Assembly: GCF_023169965.1 (NCBI RefSeq)
Contig: NZ_AP025592.1
Coordinates: forward strand, 1,860,001-1,924,000
Direction: 5' to 3'
Length of the DNA: 64,000 bases
Source: Anaeromyxobacter paludicola
GTDB taxonomy: Bacteria > Myxococcota > Myxococcia > Myxococcales > Anaeromyxobacteraceae
Part shown: in pieces, positions 17,072 to 25,092 of the stretch
How positions within the stretch are numbered: position 1 is the stretch's first letter
How the letters are laid out: each line of letters starts with the position of its first letter
Notes under the pieces: generated by a model
Databases searched by the model: none
The model's input: only the letters and a program-made list of their open reading frames with translations
What the model was told of the DNA's origin: nothing
Program-made: the position numbers and the translations under genes

Positions 17072-20000
17072 ATGCCCGCGCTCGTCCTTCGCTCCCTCGC
17101 CGATCTGGCCAACGCCGTTGCGGCGCTCCCCGTCGCCGGCCCCCTGCCCGTCCGCACGGTCCTGGTCTCTTCGGAGCGCCAGGCCCACGCCCTGCGGCGA
17201 GCGCTGGTTGAGTCGGGGCGCGAGGGGGTGCTGGCCGGCACCCGCTTCACCTCGGCGGTCGCGCTGGCGGAGGAGGTGCTGCACGGCGCGGGCACCCGCT
17301 TCCAGCCGGGAGAGGATGGCCTGCGCGGCGCGCGGCTCCTCACCCTCTTCGACGACCCGCCCCCGCTCGAGTACTTCGACCCCGAGCTCCTGCGGAGCCG
17401 GCCGGGTTGGGACGAGGCCTTCGCGCGCACGCTCTCGGACCTAGAAGGCGCGGGGCTCCGGCCGGACACTTTGCCGGTGGACCGACCCCAGTGGCGGGAC
17501 GTGGCGGCCATATGGAGGCGGCTCGAGGAGACTGCGGGAACGAGCTTCACGGCGGCCCGCATCCTCGCCGAGGCCGCAGCGGTCCTGCGGCGTGGTGGCG
17601 CAGCGCCGGAAGGTCCCGCGCTCGCCGTGGTGACGGGGCACGAGCGGGCAGTCCACGGGGCCTTCCTGCGCGCGCTACCGGGCGCGGCCCTGGGGATCTG
17701 GGCGGTGCGGCCGCTGACCGACAGGTTCCTGCAGCGGGTGGAGGCGCTGTACGGCGAGCAGGCGCGGAGAGCGCTGGAGCTCTCACCCCCTTCCCCGGCT
17801 GGCGCGCCCTCCCACGAGCTCGACCTCCTCCAGCGCCACCTCTTCGGCTCCGCCGCGGACCTCGCCGACCCGTCGCGCCCCCGCAGTACGGGGCCGGACG
17901 GCACGGTGCACCTCGAGGAACACGCCGGGGTCGAGGCGGAGGTGGAGGCGGCGGTGGACTGGGTGGCGCGACAGGTGCTGGAGCACGGCACCGCACTGCA
18001 GGAGGTCGCCGTCCTCACGGCGCAGCCCGGACCTGTGACGGCACTCCTCGCCGCGCGCATCGCCCGGTTGCCCTTCCCGGGCGGACCGCTCCCGGTGTAC
18101 GTCGCGGGCGGCATCTCGACCACGGCCACTGCCGCCGGCGCGCGGCTCCTCGCGCTCCTGCAGGCGCTCGCAGGCTGGCTGCCGGCCGAGGCAGTCGCGG
18201 CGGTCCTGCCGTCACTCCGGGCCGAGCAGGATGGGAGCAATCACCTCTCGCACGCCGAGGCGATCCGGGTCGCCTTCGCGCTCGGCACCGCTGGAGGCAA
18301 CGCCGCCCACCCGCAGGGCGCGCTCGAGTGGCCGGTGCGCGCCGCGGCGCGGGAGGCGGAGCTCGAGACGGCGCTTGCGGCCGCGGAGGAGAACGCGCAA
18401 CGCGTCGGGGGACCAGCGGTCAGGGAGGTGCGGGAGATCCAGGCGCTCCTCGCCCTCGTCCGCGCGGCCCGTCCTGCCCTCGAGGCGCTCGGAGGACTGG
18501 CGCGGCTCGTCTACAAGGGCGCCCCGATCGGAGCGCTCCTCGACGCCCTCGAGACCTTCGCCGGCAACTTCCTGCTCGAGCCGGGCACCGGCCCCAAGGT
18601 CTCGCAGCTCCTCGCGGACTCGTTCGACGCCGCCCGCAGCGACCTCCTCGCGAAGACCCTCCGCGGCCCGGACGCGCTCCGGCTCATCGAGGACCGGCTC
18701 CGCGGACTCTCCCTCGCCCAGGGGCGCTTCGGCGCGCCGGCGGTCTTCGTGGGCACGGTTGCCGAGGCGGCCGGCCTCGAGTTCGCGGCGGTGCGCGTGG
18801 TCGGCCTCTGCGAGGGCGCCCTCCCCTCCGCCGTGCGCCAGGATCCGGTGCTCCCGGACGCGCTCCGCCACGGCGCGGCGCCGCTCTTGCCGCTCGCCGA
18901 AGACCGCGCCCTGGCGCAGCTGCACGGGCTCGCCCGGGTGGTGGCCGGCACGCGGAGCGCCCTCGCGCTCTCCGCTCCCCGCACCGGGCTCGACCGCGGC
19001 GAGCGCGAGCCGGCGTCGATCTTCGTCGAGGCGGGCGCGGCGCTGGCGCGCCCGAACGCCGCCACCGGAGCGCGCGGCGCGCTCGTGCCGGGCCTGAAGG
19101 CCCTCCGCCGCGACGCCTTCCGGCCCGCCCGCGCCGACGCGGCCGGCTTCCGCGAGGTCCATCCGGTCGTCGCCCGCGCCTGGCTCGAGCGCGCCGCGGC
19201 AGAGGGCGAGCTGCACCCCTCCTGGCGGGACGAGCCCGCCCTCGACCTCGGGCGGGTGGCCGCGCTCTCCGACCTGGAAGCGCCGCCCGGTCCGGCCGAT
19301 GGGCTCCTGGGCGAGAGCGGCGCGGCGCCGGTCATGCCGGGCCTCACCCCGGAGAAGCCCATCTCGGCCTCGGCGCTCGGCCAGCTCCTCGGCTGCCCCC
19401 GGCGCTTCCTCTACGGGCGCGTCCTCCACCTCGACGACCCTGCCGCCGCGCCCTCGATGAACGAGCTCGACGCGCTCACCTACGGCACCCTCTTCCACGG
19501 CGTGATGGAGGCCTTCTTCTGCGCCCACGGCGCGGCGTTCGCGGCGAGAGGGAAGAGCCTGGAGCGCTGGCAGGAGGTGGCGGGCGAGCTCGCCGACGCG
19601 CACCTCGACGCGCTCCTCTCCGAGGTGCCGCTCGCCGGCGAGGGTATCCGCGAAAAGGAGCGGAACCGGCTGCGGGACGACGTGCGCTCGTTCCTGGCCT
19701 ACGACCGGGAGGGCGCCCAGGGCCGCGCCTTCGTCGACGTGGAGCGCCCCTTCGGCTACGACGCGCCCCTGGCACTCCCGGCCGGCGAGCGCACGCTCTA
19801 CGTCCGCGGCTGCATCGACCGGCTCGACGTCCAGGATGGAGTCACCCTGCTCCGCGACCTCAAGACCGGCAAGCCGCACCCGCGCACCGGCGACGAGGCC
19901 GGGCCCACGGCGGTGCGCGACGTCCAGCTGGCGCTCTACGCGCTCGTGACGAAGCAGCTCGCGAGGAAGTGGGGCCTGCCTGGGAAGGTCCAGGCGGCCT

Positions 20001-20275
20001 ACGCCTACGCAGCCGACCGCGGCGAGCGGGAGCGCGCCTTCCGCGAGGACGTGAAGGCGCTCACCGACGCCGGCAAGGGGTGGCTGTCGCTCGCGGCCAA
20101 GCTGCTCGCCACGCGCACCTTCCCCGCCACCACCAACTCCAAAGGCTGCACCTTCTGCGGGTTCAAACCGCTCTGCGGCGGCGAGGCGCCGGAGCGCTCG
20201 GGCCGTATCCTGGGCCAGGCCAACGGGCCAGCGGCCGCCTTCTACGCGCTCGAGAACGGAACGGATCAGCCATGA
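17072..20275 (+). CDS. addB: AddB-like helicase-nuclease subunit
   Basis: The 1067-residue protein has the AddB layout: a degenerate N-terminal helicase-like region and a C-terminal RecB-type nuclease. The nuclease shows GCIDRLD, then RDLKTGK. The four iron-sulfur cysteines of AddB are at C775 (LGCPRRF), C1026, C1029 and C1035 (GCTFCGFKPLCGG). With AddA it would process double-strand breaks into 3' single strands for RecA loading and degrade foreign linear DNA. Its stop overlaps the addA start as ATGA. Confidence 0.85.
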   Translation: MPALVLRSLADLANAVAALPVAGPLPVRTVLVSSERQAHALRRALVESGREGVLAGTRFTSAVALAEEVLHGAGTRFQPGEDGLRGARLLTLFDDPPPLEYFDPELLRSRPGWDEAFARTLSDLEGAGLRPDTLPVDRPQWRDVAAIWRRLEETAGTSFTAARILAEAAAVLRRGGAAPEGPALAVVTGHERAVHGAFLRALPGAALGIWAVRPLTDRFLQRVEALYGEQARRALELSPPSPAGAPSHELDLLQRHLFGSAADLADPSRPRSTGPDGTVHLEEHAGVEAEVEAAVDWVARQVLEHGTALQEVAVLTAQPGPVTALLAARIARLPFPGGPLPVYVAGGISTTATAAGARLLALLQALAGWLPAEAVAAVLPSLRAEQDGSNHLSHAEAIRVAFALGTAGGNAAHPQGALEWPVRAAAREAELETALAAAEENAQRVGGPAVREVREIQALLALVRAARPALEALGGLARLVYKGAPIGALLDALETFAGNFLLEPGTGPKVSQLLADSFDAARSDLLAKTLRGPDALRLIEDRLRGLSLAQGRFGAPAVFVGTVAEAAGLEFAAVRVVGLCEGALPSAVRQDPVLPDALRHGAAPLLPLAEDRALAQLHGLARVVAGTRSALALSAPRTGLDRGEREPASIFVEAGAALARPNAATGARGALVPGLKALRRDAFRPARADAAGFREVHPVVARAWLERAAAEGELHPSWRDEPALDLGRVAALSDLEAPPGPADGLLGESGAAPVMPGLTPEKPISASALGQLLGCPRRFLYGRVLHLDDPAAAPSMNELDALTYGTLFHGVMEAFFCAHGAAFAARGKSLERWQEVAGELADAHLDALLSEVPLAGEGIREKERNRLRDDVRSFLAYDREGAQGRAFVDVERPFGYDAPLALPAGERTLYVRGCIDRLDVQDGVTLLRDLKTGKPHPRTGDEAGPTAVRDVQLALYALVTKQLARKWGLPGKVQAAYAYAADRGERERAFREDVKALTDAGKGWLSLAAKLLATRTFPATTNSKGCTFCGFKPLCGGEAPERSGRILGQANGPAAAFYALENGTDQP

Positions 20276-23200
20276 GCAGGAAGCTTCCCCCCGACCACGA
20301 GGCTCGCCGCCGCATCGTCGAGGAGCGCGCCAGGAACGTGCTCGTCGGCGCTGGCGCCGGCACCGGCAAGACCACCACCATCGTGGAGCGGCTGGCCGGG
20401 ATGGTCGCGCCCGCGGACGACGGGCCGGCGCTGCCGCTGGAGCGGATCGCCGCCATCACCTTCACCCGCAAGGCGGCCGGGGAGCTGCGGCTCCGGCTGC
20501 GCGAGGAGATCCTCACCCGGCTGGCGACGGCGGACCTCTCCGCCACCCGCCGCGAACGGCTCTCCCGCGCCGCCGCCGCGTTCGACACCGCAGCGGTGGG
20601 GACCATCCACTCCTTCGCCGATCGGCTGCTCCGGCTGCGGCCGGTCGAGGCTCGCCTCTCGCCCTCCTACTCGTTGGTGGAGGACGGCGACGCGCTGGTC
20701 GAGGAGACCTGCCGGGTCCTGCTGCACGCGGCGCAGGCGCGGACGCTGGCGCAGGAACTGGCGGGCCACGAGGCGCTCTGCGACGCCGCTCGCGCGGAGG
20801 AGGCCCAGGAGTCGATCCGGGCGGCGCTCGACGCCGGCCTGCCGGTGGACTCGAAGGAGTACGAGTTCGCCACCAAGAACGGCCTGTGGGCGCTCTTCGC
20901 GGGCTTCATCGCCCAGCGCGACGTCCCGCCGCCGGAAGCGCCGCCGGCGAAATTCCAGGCTGCCCGGATCCGCGCGCTGGTGGAGGAGTTCCAGGAATGG
21001 ACCCGCGGCGTCGGCGATGGCACGCCGGGCGGCAAGTGGCTCCGCCGGACCGCGAAGCGGCTCGACAAGCTCGACGTGGGGGCTGGCCCGGCGACGGTCC
21101 TCCACGAGCTGCAGTCGATCGAGCGCTCCGAGCCCGAGAAGATGCGGAAGACGGTCGAGTTCAAGGGCGACCCGGCGGCCTACCGAGCCTGGCAGGCCTG
21201 GGCCGGCGACACGACCCAGCACCCGGCGCGTGAGCGGCCGCTGCGCGACGACCTCGCCGCCCCGGCGCAGCGGTGGCTCGCCACCCGCCTCGTCCGCACC
21301 TTCCCGGCGGTGATCGCCGCCTACGAGAAGGTGAAGGCGCGCCACCGGGCGGTGGACCAGCTCGACCTCCTGCTCCGGCTGCGCGACCTCCTGCGCGACG
21401 ACCGGGCGGTCCGCACCGAGTACCAGGCGCTCTTCGACCACCTCTTCGTGGACGAGTTCCAGGACACCGACCCCTTGCAGGCGGAGATCGTCCTCTACCT
21501 CTGCGAGGACGGCGCCCGCGCCGCTGCCTGGCAGGAGGTGGCGGTGAAGCCGGGCAAGCTCACGCTGGTCGGCGACCCGAAGCAGTCGATCTACCGGTTC
21601 CGGCGCGCCGACATCGCGGTTTACGACGCGGTGCGCGAGCAGGTGAAGCGCGGGCCGTGCCTCGAGGAGGCGCTCTCCGCCAACTTCCGCAGCGAGCCCG
21701 CACTCATCTCCTTCTTCAACGACCGCTTCGACGAGGTACTGGGGAAGGCTGAGGCCGGAGAGCCGGTCTTCGATCCGGCCGCGGGAACCGTCAAGAACGA
21801 GCGGCTCCTGGCCGGGCTCGACGGGCACCCGGGACCCGTGGTGACGGTGCTCCCCTACCAGTCGGCGGACGGCAAGACGCAGTCGGACCGGGAGCAGGAA
21901 GGCCGCGCCCTGGCGGCGTGGCTGCGGTCGATGGTCGGCGAGGGCGAGGTGGAGATCACCGATCCCTCCACCGGTGCCCGGCGCCCCGCAGGCTACGGTG
22001 ACGTGGCGGTGCTGGCGCGCTCCACCTGGCACCTGGGGCTCCTCTTCGCGCCGCTCGACGAGCTCGGGGTCCCCTACTCCGCCCGCGGCGGCACGCTCTT
22101 CCTGGAAGACCCGCTCCACCGGCAGTTCCTGCTCGCGCTGCGCGCGCTCGCCGACCGGGACGACGGCGTGGCCGTGGCGGCGCTGCTCCGGCCGCCATTC
22201 TTCGCCCTCGACCTGGGCGACCTGGTGGCGCAGCGGGCGGCGGCGCCCGAAGCAGACGGCGACGAGCGGGTGACCCGGGCCCGCGCGGCGCAGGCGTTCG
22301 TGTCGGCGTTGCGGCGCGAGCGGCACGCGCGCCCCGCCGGCGACACCGCGCGCGACCTCCTGGAGCGGACCGCCTTCGGCCGGACGGCGGCGCTGGGGCC
22401 GAACGGGGCGCAGCGGCTGGAGCGGCTGAGGGAGCTCTGCCTGGAGCTGGAGCGGCTCTCCGCCGAGGAGGGGCTCGACTTCGACGCGGCCACCCTGCGG
22501 CTGCGCGAGTGGGCGGTGGAGCCGGTGGGCTTCGATCCACCGCGGCCGGTGGCGACCGAGGCGGTGCAGGTGATGAGCATCCACCAGGCGAAGGGGCTCG
22601 AGTTCCCGGTGGTGATCCTGTGGGACGGGCGCGACGAGCTGCAGCCCAAGAAGAAGGGCACCGCCCAGGCCTGGACGGTGGACCGCGAGGGCGAGAGCTG
22701 GGCACTCGGGCTCGACGGCCTGGACTGGGAGGAACCGGCCGACGCAGGCGTGCTCGAGCGCGAGCAGAAGTACCTCGACGCCGAGCGGAGGCGGCTCGTC
22801 TACGTGGCCGCGACCCGGGCGCGCGACCGGCTCCTGCTGCCGGTACCGGCGGCGAGCCCGCCCACGCGCGTGACGGCGTGCCTCGCCGCGGGCGAGGGGC
22901 CGCCGGAGGTGCTCGAGACCTTCGGGCCCGACGCGAAGCCAGCCTGGGCCAAGGCGGCGGTGCCGCCCACGCCGAAGAAGCAGCGCGCCGCGATGAAGCT
23001 GGCGCGCGAGGTGGAGGAGGCGTGGAGCAAGGCGGCCGCGGCCGCCGGGGAGCCCCGGCTCGCGCCGGCGGGAGTGTCCGCGGAGGCGCACGCGGCGTGG
23101 GAGCCGGCGAGCGCCGCGGAAGCTGACCCCGCTGCCGAGCCCGCGCCTCCCCGGAAGTACCGCCCCGGCCGCTTCGGCAACGTCTTCGGCGACACGGTGC

Positions 23201-23643
23201 ACCGGGCCATCGGCGTGGCTCTCCGTCAGCCGGCGCTCGCTCCCGGGGCGGCGGTGGAGCGTGCCCGTACCGAGACCGGTCTCGAAGAGCACCTCGATGA
23301 AGCGGCCGACGACGTGGAGCGCGCCCTCGCGGCGCTCACCGCGGCTGGCCTGCGCCGCCCGCCCGGCAACGACCTCCGGCTCGAGTACCCGGTCGCTGCC
23401 GCGGCCGGCAAGAAACTCCTCGCGGGTTACGTCGACCTGCTCTCGGCCGCGGACGGCGCGCTCGAGGTGATCGACTTCAAGACCGACCAGCCGCCCGAGG
23501 GCGACGTACAGGATAGCCACCCGGACTACGTGGCCCAGGTCCGGCGGTACGGTGAGATCCTGGCCCAACTCGGGCTCTCCCAGGGCCGGACGGTGCGCTG
23601 CGGCCTGCTCTTCACGGCGGACGGGGGGCTTAGATGGACGTGA
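20272..23643 (+). CDS. addA: AddA-like UvrD-family helicase-nuclease
   Basis: The 1123-residue protein begins with a superfamily 1A helicase: Walker A GAGAGTGKTT at 27-36, motif Ia AAITFTRKAAGELRLRL, FVDEFQDTDP near 393-402, GDPKQSIYRFR, the SIHQAKGLEFPVVIL block and VAATRARDRLLL. A C-terminal PD-(D/E)XK nuclease carries EVIDFKTDQ near 1066. It is the motor and nuclease partner of AddB. Its last bases overlap the start of an inserted nuclease-like gene. A second, diverged copy of its final codons lies at 24944-25018, showing that the 3' end has been rebuilt around an insertion. Confidence 0.88.
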   Translation: MSRKLPPDHEARRRIVEERARNVLVGAGAGTGKTTTIVERLAGMVAPADDGPALPLERIAAITFTRKAAGELRLRLREEILTRLATADLSATRRERLSRAAAAFDTAAVGTIHSFADRLLRLRPVEARLSPSYSLVEDGDALVEETCRVLLHAAQARTLAQELAGHEALCDAARAEEAQESIRAALDAGLPVDSKEYEFATKNGLWALFAGFIAQRDVPPPEAPPAKFQAARIRALVEEFQEWTRGVGDGTPGGKWLRRTAKRLDKLDVGAGPATVLHELQSIERSEPEKMRKTVEFKGDPAAYRAWQAWAGDTTQHPARERPLRDDLAAPAQRWLATRLVRTFPAVIAAYEKVKARHRAVDQLDLLLRLRDLLRDDRAVRTEYQALFDHLFVDEFQDTDPLQAEIVLYLCEDGARAAAWQEVAVKPGKLTLVGDPKQSIYRFRRADIAVYDAVREQVKRGPCLEEALSANFRSEPALISFFNDRFDEVLGKAEAGEPVFDPAAGTVKNERLLAGLDGHPGPVVTVLPYQSADGKTQSDREQEGRALAAWLRSMVGEGEVEITDPSTGARRPAGYGDVAVLARSTWHLGLLFAPLDELGVPYSARGGTLFLEDPLHRQFLLALRALADRDDGVAVAALLRPPFFALDLGDLVAQRAAAPEADGDERVTRARAAQAFVSALRRERHARPAGDTARDLLERTAFGRTAALGPNGAQRLERLRELCLELERLSAEEGLDFDAATLRLREWAVEPVGFDPPRPVATEAVQVMSIHQAKGLEFPVVILWDGRDELQPKKKGTAQAWTVDREGESWALGLDGLDWEEPADAGVLEREQKYLDAERRRLVYVAATRARDRLLLPVPAASPPTRVTACLAAGEGPPEVLETFGPDAKPAWAKAAVPPTPKKQRAAMKLAREVEEAWSKAAAAAGEPRLAPAGVSAEAHAAWEPASAAEADPAAEPAPPRKYRPGRFGNVFGDTVHRAIGVALRQPALAPGAAVERARTETGLEEHLDEAADDVERALAALTAAGLRRPPGNDLRLEYPVAAAAGKKLLAGYVDLLSAADGALEVIDFKTDQPPEGDVQDSHPDYVAQVRRYGEILAQLGLSQGRTVRCGLLFTADGGLRWT

Positions 23644-24452
23644 CGAAAGGGAACCCGACCTGGGCCTTTCTGCGGCGGTTCCGCGTTGAGACCGAGGCAT
23701 CGTGGCGATCCCTGCATCACTGGATCACTTCAGCGACGGCCGCTCTCGAGGACATTCAACGAGAGTTGGACGAGCTCGAGCGACGGTGGGCCGAGGCGCT
23801 TGCTCCGCTGGACGAAGTGTCCGCGATCGACTGGCGCAACTTCCGGCCTCTTCGCCTCGGTCGCGAGGAAGCCTGGAGCGACTGGCTCGCTCACCTGCTG
23901 GAGCAATCGGCGACCGGCGAGCTTGCACGATGTTTCTTGGGAACCGAGTTTGCGGTTGCCGATACCCGACGTCCCAACGTACTGCGCGAGGTTCGTACGG
24001 CGAACGGCGAACGGCGGGCCGATCTCGTCATCGAATGGAAGTCGGGTGAAGTCCTGCACATCGAGGTCAAGACCGGCGATCAGGATTTCGACAAGACCTT
24101 CGAGACGGCCGACCTGCTCAGCGCAAAGTACGGAAGCGGCCGAACATGGACTGATGCCATCTTGCTTCCACCCGAGGACGAGGGCCGCTGGCATCAGGCC
24201 GCAGAGAAAGTCGCAAACCCGCGCCAGATACGGACGTTGACCTGGCGCGGCGTTGCAGTGGGCGCACGGCGAGCGCTCCTAGAGAGTAAGGAGTCCACCT
24301 CCTGGCGCGCTTGGGCCCAGTCCTTCTGCGGCGCCGTCGAGCAGAGAATCTTGGGCTGTCAGCCGGCAGACTTTCGAGGGAGTCAGCACGGCCTCGCGCG
24401 GCGCGCGGCAGTTGTGTTGCAACTTGACCTGCTGAGGGAGGCTAGCAAGTGA
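23634..24452 (+). CDS. PD-(D/E)XK-like nuclease protein inserted at the addA 3' end
   Basis: Not a named family. Residues 78-90 (REEAWSDWLAHLL) with Glu79, then RADLVIE (Asp130), then LHIEVKTGD (Glu144, Lys146), form the pattern of a PD-(D/E)XK nuclease. The first 60 residues are helical and may be a coiled coil (LEDIQRELDELERRW). It begins inside addA with a ten-base overlap and its end overlaps the next gene by four bases, so both would be translated with addA. Codon use is less extremely GC-biased than in addA. A DNA-cleaving accessory role is inferred. Confidence 0.6.
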   Translation: MDVTKGNPTWAFLRRFRVETEASWRSLHHWITSATAALEDIQRELDELERRWAEALAPLDEVSAIDWRNFRPLRLGREEAWSDWLAHLLEQSATGELARCFLGTEFAVADTRRPNVLREVRTANGERRADLVIEWKSGEVLHIEVKTGDQDFDKTFETADLLSAKYGSGRTWTDAILLPPEDEGRWHQAAEKVANPRQIRTLTWRGVAVGARRALLESKESTSWRAWAQSFCGAVEQRILGCQPADFRGSQHGLARRAAVVLQLDLLREASK

Positions 24453-24931
24453 CTACGAACCGAGATTTCGTCAGCGAAGGCCTCACTGCCTATCCAGAGG
24501 CGAGACTTGCGGCAGCGACCTTCGAGATGGAGCTTCTGGAGCGAATCCGCCAATTTCTATCAACTTACAATTGGGGCCCTTTCACACCCGGAAGTCAGCG
24601 GTCCGAAGCCAGCGGCAACCTGAAGAATGGCTGGTGGATCTGCATGACACAGCCTTTGAAACTGGGCCGAGATGCCGCGATCATCGACGTTGGCTACTGG
24701 TGGAACGGTCCGGGAGCGCCCTACCCTGCGCTCATCTACTCGGCCTTCCACAAAGAGCCGGAGCAGCTCCTTGCGTTCCAGTATGACAACTCGGAACCGT
24801 CGGTGCGCAGCTTCTCCTGCTTCGACAAGACGTTCCTGACTTCACCGATGCCGAGCGACCTGGAACCGGGATCAATGCTGAGTGTCCAGGTCGGGAAGCT
24901 CATGGAAGTCTTGAAGAAGTCGCACCTTTGA
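24449..24931 (+). CDS. Hypothetical protein, 160 aa, partner of the preceding nuclease
   Basis: Unrecognised. It begins with GTG at 24449, overlapping the previous stop, so it is translationally coupled. It is a globular-looking protein with aromatic and proline-rich segments (TYNWGPFTPG, NGWWICMTQPL, VGYWWNGPG) and no membrane helix. Immunity or regulatory function for the upstream nuclease is possible but there is no direct evidence. Confidence 0.55.
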   Translation: MTTNRDFVSEGLTAYPEARLAAATFEMELLERIRQFLSTYNWGPFTPGSQRSEASGNLKNGWWICMTQPLKLGRDAAIIDVGYWWNGPGAPYPALIYSAFHKEPEQLLAFQYDNSEPSVRSFSCFDKTFLTSPMPSDLEPGSMLSVQVGKLMEVLKKSHL

Positions 24932-24943
24932 GCTCCAGGAGCA

Positions 24944-25018
24944 CTCGGGCTCGCGCGAGGCCGCACGGTTCGCTGCGGGCTCCTCTTCACCGCCGATGGC
25001 GGGATGCGCTGGGTCTGA
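24944..25018 (+). pseudogene. Second copy of the addA 3' end
   Basis: This 25-codon stretch reads LGLARGRTVRCGLLFTADGG followed by MRWV and stop. The true addA terminus reads LGLSQGRTVRCGLLFTADGG followed by LRWT and stop. The two copies differ mostly at silent positions. It has no start and is not a gene. It appears to be the displaced original terminus of addA, separated from the gene body by the two-gene insertion. Confidence 0.75.
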
Positions 25019-25044: not shown

Positions 25045-25079
25045 GAGGGCGGCGCGCCCCCGCAAGGCCGCGCGCCCTC
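25045..25079. terminator. GC-rich hairpin between convergent genes
   Basis: GAGGGCGGCGCG at 25045-25056 pairs, with one bulged G, with CGCGCGCCCTC at 25069-25079. It lies between the end of the addA block and the stop of the convergent VWA gene, the expected place for a bidirectional terminator. There is no clear T-run. Confidence 0.5.
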
Positions 25080-25092
25080 CCCCCTCCAACGC

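Follow-up and report, generated by a model that had tools for sequence, protein, structure and literature searches.

Apparent horizontal addition of a nuclease-like gene pair behind addA in Anaeromyxobacter paludicola, with the displaced native gene end left downstream

Within the 64,000-nt stretch of the Anaeromyxobacter paludicola genome analysed here (the window), the last 25 codons of addA occur twice in the same orientation, with only two genes, termed cargo 1 and cargo 2, lying between the copies (Table 1). How did the end of this gene come to be present twice, which of the two copies is native, and what are the genes that they enclose? The addB stop codon overlaps the addA start, and addB, addA, cargo 1 and cargo 2 together form a tightly overlapping four-gene series. 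The addA product shares approximately 77% amino acid identity with its orthologue in the congener G001. A second addA-like gene of approximately 39% identity is present in the same genome outside the window (G000:C1:248730-250559), so the addAB genes of the window may not encode the organism's sole AddAB/RecB-type enzyme.

Table 1. Features of the addB-addA locus and the DNA behind it (positions within the window)
Feature	Coordinates	Strand	Basis and remarks
addB-like gene	17072..20275	+	ORF; Pfam PDDEXK_1 6e-33; opens the operon
addA-like helicase-nuclease, 1123 aa, intact	20272..23643	+	Pfam UvrD-helicase 1.2e-47, UvrD_C, PDDEXK_1
Putatively imported addA 3' end, about 40 codons	23521..23643	+	Drop in synonymous identity against G001; left border is a statistical estimate
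Tail copy 1 (addA end, stop TGA 23641-23643)	23569..23643	+	25 codons that recur downstream
Cargo 1, candidate PD-(D/E)XK-type nuclease, 272 aa	23634..24452	+	Invariant motifs; ATG 23634, alternative GTG 23640
Cargo 2, partner, 160 aa	24449..24931	+	GTG start overlaps the cargo 1 stop (GTGA); homologues adjoin the nuclease in L117, L129, L130 and L131
Displaced native addA 3' end, remnant	24930..25018	+	Colinear with the G001 empty site; 1 nt deleted near 24943
Tail copy 2 (stop TGA 25016-25018)	24944..25018	+	Repeat of tail 1, same orientation
GC-rich hairpin in the native addA 3' flank	25045..25086	+	Also directly behind addA in G001

The two tails are identical at 56 of 75 nt and encode the same residue at 21 of 25 codons, the stop counted in, which bears out an earlier sequence-only reading that had described the last 25 codons of addA as present twice, nearly identical as protein and with many silent differences. 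The best other 75-nt matches to tail 1 in the window reached 39 identities on the forward strand and 43 on the reverse, and a BLASTN comparison between the 3-kb flanks recovered 76 nt at 77.6% identity starting from 24929 (E = 5.5e-11; next best match, E = 0.008). The tail repeat is thus far above chance. The second copy had been given as the 25 codons alone and is indeed present there, but the remnant to which it belongs is longer and aligns to G001 addA from 24930.

To assign polarity, the locus was compared with a single congener, G001, in which the site is empty: the end of addA runs directly into DNA matching the sequence behind tail 2. The alignment to G001 is free of any insert from 24930, inside the cargo 2 stop codon, to past 25018, apart from a 1-nt deletion near 24943, and colinearity continues beyond the native stop into downstream non-coding DNA, including the GC-rich hairpin. 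This hairpin has no T-run, its fold z-scores are weak (−2.0 and −1.6) and it was not called in a terminator scan; it is a possible operon terminator. Tail 2 is approximately 90% identical to the G001 addA end and tail 1 approximately 75-76%, with 14 of 18 informative sites, hand-counted on the alignment, siding with tail 2 and four with tail 1 (p = 0.03), and in a small tree tail 2 groups with G001 while tail 1 falls outside, with a moderate support of 79. Because tail 2 is the closer to G001 and is colinear with the empty site, it is the displaced native end, and tail 1 would be the copy that came with the insert; with one congener for comparison, this polarity rests on 75 nt at p = 0.03 together with colinearity. 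The proposal that an insertion lies between the tails and brought its own addA end is supported by the empty site and by the native continuation of tail 2 and the DNA behind it, and the accompanying prediction of a relative that lacks the insert and ends like the second copy is borne out by G001.

Divergence along addA indicates that the imported stretch may extend upstream of the repeat. Synonymous identity to G001 averages 0.70 along the gene, and the strongest drop at its 3' end, from 0.71 to 0.42, was located at codon 1083 (approximately 23521), with a significance of 0.003 under full shuffling, 0.01 under block shuffling and 0.027 under circular shifts. The reading frame is continuous across this change point into a tail that is divergent yet homologous, so about 40 foreign addA codons seem to have been imported with the cargo, and there is statistical support for a foreign source of tail 1 as well as for the estimated left border. 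Third-position GC content is 0.71-0.73 in the cargo genes vs 0.92-0.94 in addAB. A DNA search of 195 Myxococcota genomes (one per species, one congener) recovered no close candidate for the donor tail, an absence of little weight given that composition of the collection.

Cargo 1 is a candidate PD-(D/E)XK-type nuclease. Residues E78/E79, D130 and E144-x-K146 are invariant over nine homologues, which provides the conserved D...ExK motif expected of the PD-(D/E)XK superfamily, and an upstream EE-x-WS motif is likewise kept in all nine. The helix-strand order of an AlphaFold model (mean pLDDT 46, low) follows that of PD-(D/E)XK enzymes, and the best Foldseek match of this low-confidence model, to EndoMS (E = 0.014, probability 0.98), falls short of a firm threshold; as the models of both proteins are of low confidence (37 for cargo 2), motif order alone was used for the assignment. 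Neither protein had a significant model match in Pfam, NCBIfam, PHROGs or PADLOC, so that the curated defence models of PADLOC matched neither, and searches of PDB sequences with single sequences and with profiles likewise returned no significant match; one homologue has a weak LmuA match (E = 0.0038). The sequence-only reading had placed the start of cargo 1 inside the addA stop, which holds for the GTG at 23640 (a GTGA overlap) but not for the ATG at 23634, where the overlap is 10 nt.

Homologues of cargo 1 were found at three other Myxococcota loci (in G125, G133 and G109), as a fragment in G043, on one phage contig (L117) and on four haloarchaeal plasmids, a sporadic distribution. No relatives of cargo 1 were found in a scan of genome contigs or in phage records, plasmid records yielded no match to cargo 2, and repeated viral scans returned the one phage contig only. 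Every complete homologous locus comprises the nuclease gene and an overlapping downstream gene. The downstream gene is a clear homologue of cargo 2 in the Myxococcota and on the phage contig, its homology is weak at three of the haloarchaeal loci, and at the fourth (L119) a stop interrupts the downstream frame. An alignment of the partners was too heterogeneous for use as a scan profile, and comparison of the bacterial and haloarchaeal partner profiles gave a probability of 28.6% over the N-terminal 32 residues only; the haloarchaeal partners are likely, though unproven, homologues of cargo 2. The module loci other than L119 occupy unrelated sites and showed no duplicated gene ends, indicating that the element does not carry an addA tail as a fixed component.

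The surroundings of these homologues fit a role in defence. In G125, the neighbours of the pair (L129:7203-9000) are a tyrosine integrase in truncated form (Phage_integrase, 9e-8) and a reading frame for an AlpA-like HTH protein; SduA (Shedu) is encoded approximately 5 kb away, and this region is likely a mobile defence island. On the IMG/VR contig (L117:5803-7637), the pair is accompanied by a third small gene with a NOV_C nuclease-like domain and is flanked by phage capsid/protease genes on one side and by a double DNA methyltransferase-type gene on the other, in the manner of accessory phage cargo. The haloarchaeal copies are found near HEC-05, a restriction-type methyltransferase and cas genes. 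A defence role is supported only by association, in that several homologues lie near defence genes, in a small sample without a control. It is plausible that the pair is a nuclease system directed against phages or plasmids, and it is a reasonable defence-system candidate. The further suggestion that insertion at addA exploits phage attack on AddAB is speculation. With a probability that is low but appreciable, the two genes may instead be selfish hitchhikers, for example a toxin-antitoxin pair in which the partner protects against a toxin-like nuclease. The overlapping two-gene order conserved at the checked loci and the occurrence of the pair on plasmids and a phage contig fit such a pair, but the nuclease-first order and the defence-gene neighbourhoods suit defence at least equally well.

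The history that we favour, with a probability of roughly 60%, is horizontal transfer in which one end was joined by homologous recombination in addA and the other illegitimately, with a cargo that is likely a defence nuclease pair. The incoming DNA would have carried the end of another lineage's addA in front and the two-gene nuclease module behind. Its addA stretch would have recombined with the resident gene near codon 1083, such that the resident addA was completed by the donor tail, and its other end would have formed an illegitimate joint within the resident tail, at the stop codon of cargo 2, so that the final ~30 codons of the native gene were stranded downstream. In the sequence, the cargo 2 stop joins the native tail directly at 24930. 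The outcome would be the overlapping operon addB-addA-cargo1-cargo2, which would allow expression of the cargo as part of the AddAB operon. The arrival of the module is recent; its route of entry, its coexpression with addAB and its function are what we infer.

Whether the end of addA is a recurrent target was assessed in other addA genes. The sequence-only reading had anticipated relatives with different cargo between two tails, an expectation not borne out among six orthologues (G001, G003, G019, G016, G021 and G040), none of which has a second tail, and the status of addA as a hotspot is therefore not supported. A scan of approximately 100 more distant addA-like loci revealed one other repeated end, in a Nanohaloarchaea MAG (L052:2600-3934; JAHENU010000104.1), where an addA-like end recurs about 1.08 kb downstream at 94.6% identity over 130 nt and encloses a small RelE-like ORF, read from the sequence with no Pfam match, and a short ORF in the opposite direction. 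Because the downstream repeat of L052 reaches the contig end, it may be an assembly artefact. In G019 (L040) and G016 (L042), the space behind addA is filled by CTTCGGCTCGCCTACGCTCA-GGTGAGCGG-type repeats.

Other histories would also leave a repeated gene end around an insert. Plain duplication of the addA end at insertion, by a long target duplication or by repair slippage with subsequent divergence of the copies, would account for the direct repeat flanking the insert. However, decay after a duplication should have produced the opposite of the observed identities: the stranded copy, being untranslated, is the one expected to diverge faster, yet it is closer to G001 (90% vs 76%) with its codons kept, and the divergence of addA reaches upstream of the repeat, to codon 1083; plain duplication is accordingly disfavoured and improbable. 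Homing driven by the nuclease is quite improbable as well: cargo 1 would have cleaved an unprotected addA close to the gene's 3' end, and the cassette would have been copied into place along with a divergent tail, thereby keeping AddA whole and abolishing the cleavage site, a scheme put forward for mobile endonuclease ORFs of fungal mitochondria. Its layout of foreign C-terminus, endonuclease ORF and displaced native C-terminus does match the gene hybrids of Allomyces and Glomus (PMC3630166), and cargo 1 carries nuclease motifs, but beyond this architecture and these motifs nothing supports it. Homologous cassettes elsewhere occupy unrelated sites without a duplicated gene end, other addA genes show no tail duplication with such cargo, and a conserved partner gene is atypical of homing endonucleases.

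A site-specific integrative element could have used the 3' end of addA as its attachment site and carried a replacement end. Such elements restore the ends of protein-coding genes at their targets, and the pair does lie beside an integrase fragment in G125. However, no integrase, transposase or other site-specific recombinase gene lies between the tails, the tails differ at 25% of positions and have no long identical core in common, and the insert ends at the cargo 2 stop codon rather than at a conserved core, making integration of this kind very unlikely.

With one homologous and one illegitimate joint, horizontal transfer would place the locus among recombination products of a known kind, here with a nuclease pair not described before. 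The locus provides an unusually legible record of accessory genes being appended to an operon whose integrity seems worth preserving: nothing would be broken, because the incoming DNA replaces the end of the gene, and the old addA end that remains downstream is a fossil recording the insertion event. The two-gene module itself represents an uncharacterised, sporadic nuclease family. Cargo 1 has the E...D...ExK order and, in its low-confidence model, the core strand-helix order of the PD-(D/E)XK superfamily (MmcB-like, Cas4 and EndoMS-type folds), with no significant sequence match to a named family.

The closest layouts in the literature come from several kinds of system. Fungal mitochondrial gene hybrids (Allomyces atp6; Glomus atp6, atp9, cox2 and nad3) likewise have a foreign gene end, a nuclease ORF and a displaced native end that is nearer to the sister species, with identities to the relative of 91% for the native and 64% for the inserted end, an architecture attributed to mobile endonucleases (PMC3630166). 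Those hybrids use LAGLIDADG/GIY-YIG homing endonucleases, whereas the protein at the addA locus is bacterial, of PD-(D/E)XK type and accompanied by a partner, and signs of repeated homing are absent. Homology-facilitated illegitimate recombination, in which one-sided homologous and one-sided illegitimate integration has been documented in several bacteria (Acinetobacter, Streptococcus pneumoniae, Pseudomonas stutzeri and E. coli; PMC3240628), would involve the same pair of joints and the same addition of new DNA beside a conserved stretch, although the myxobacterial case is read from a natural product rather than from an observed donor and event. Integration of this kind has also been proposed for T6SS immunity-gene arrays, with the displaced gene 3' end left downstream (PMC5361080). 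In this stepwise displacement of Vibrio cholerae effector-immunity modules, the incoming module has the same homologous upstream anchor and likewise pushes the old gene 3' end or immunity gene downstream; whereas there a toxin module is displaced, the addA case swaps the end of a repair gene for an equivalent and adds unrelated genes.
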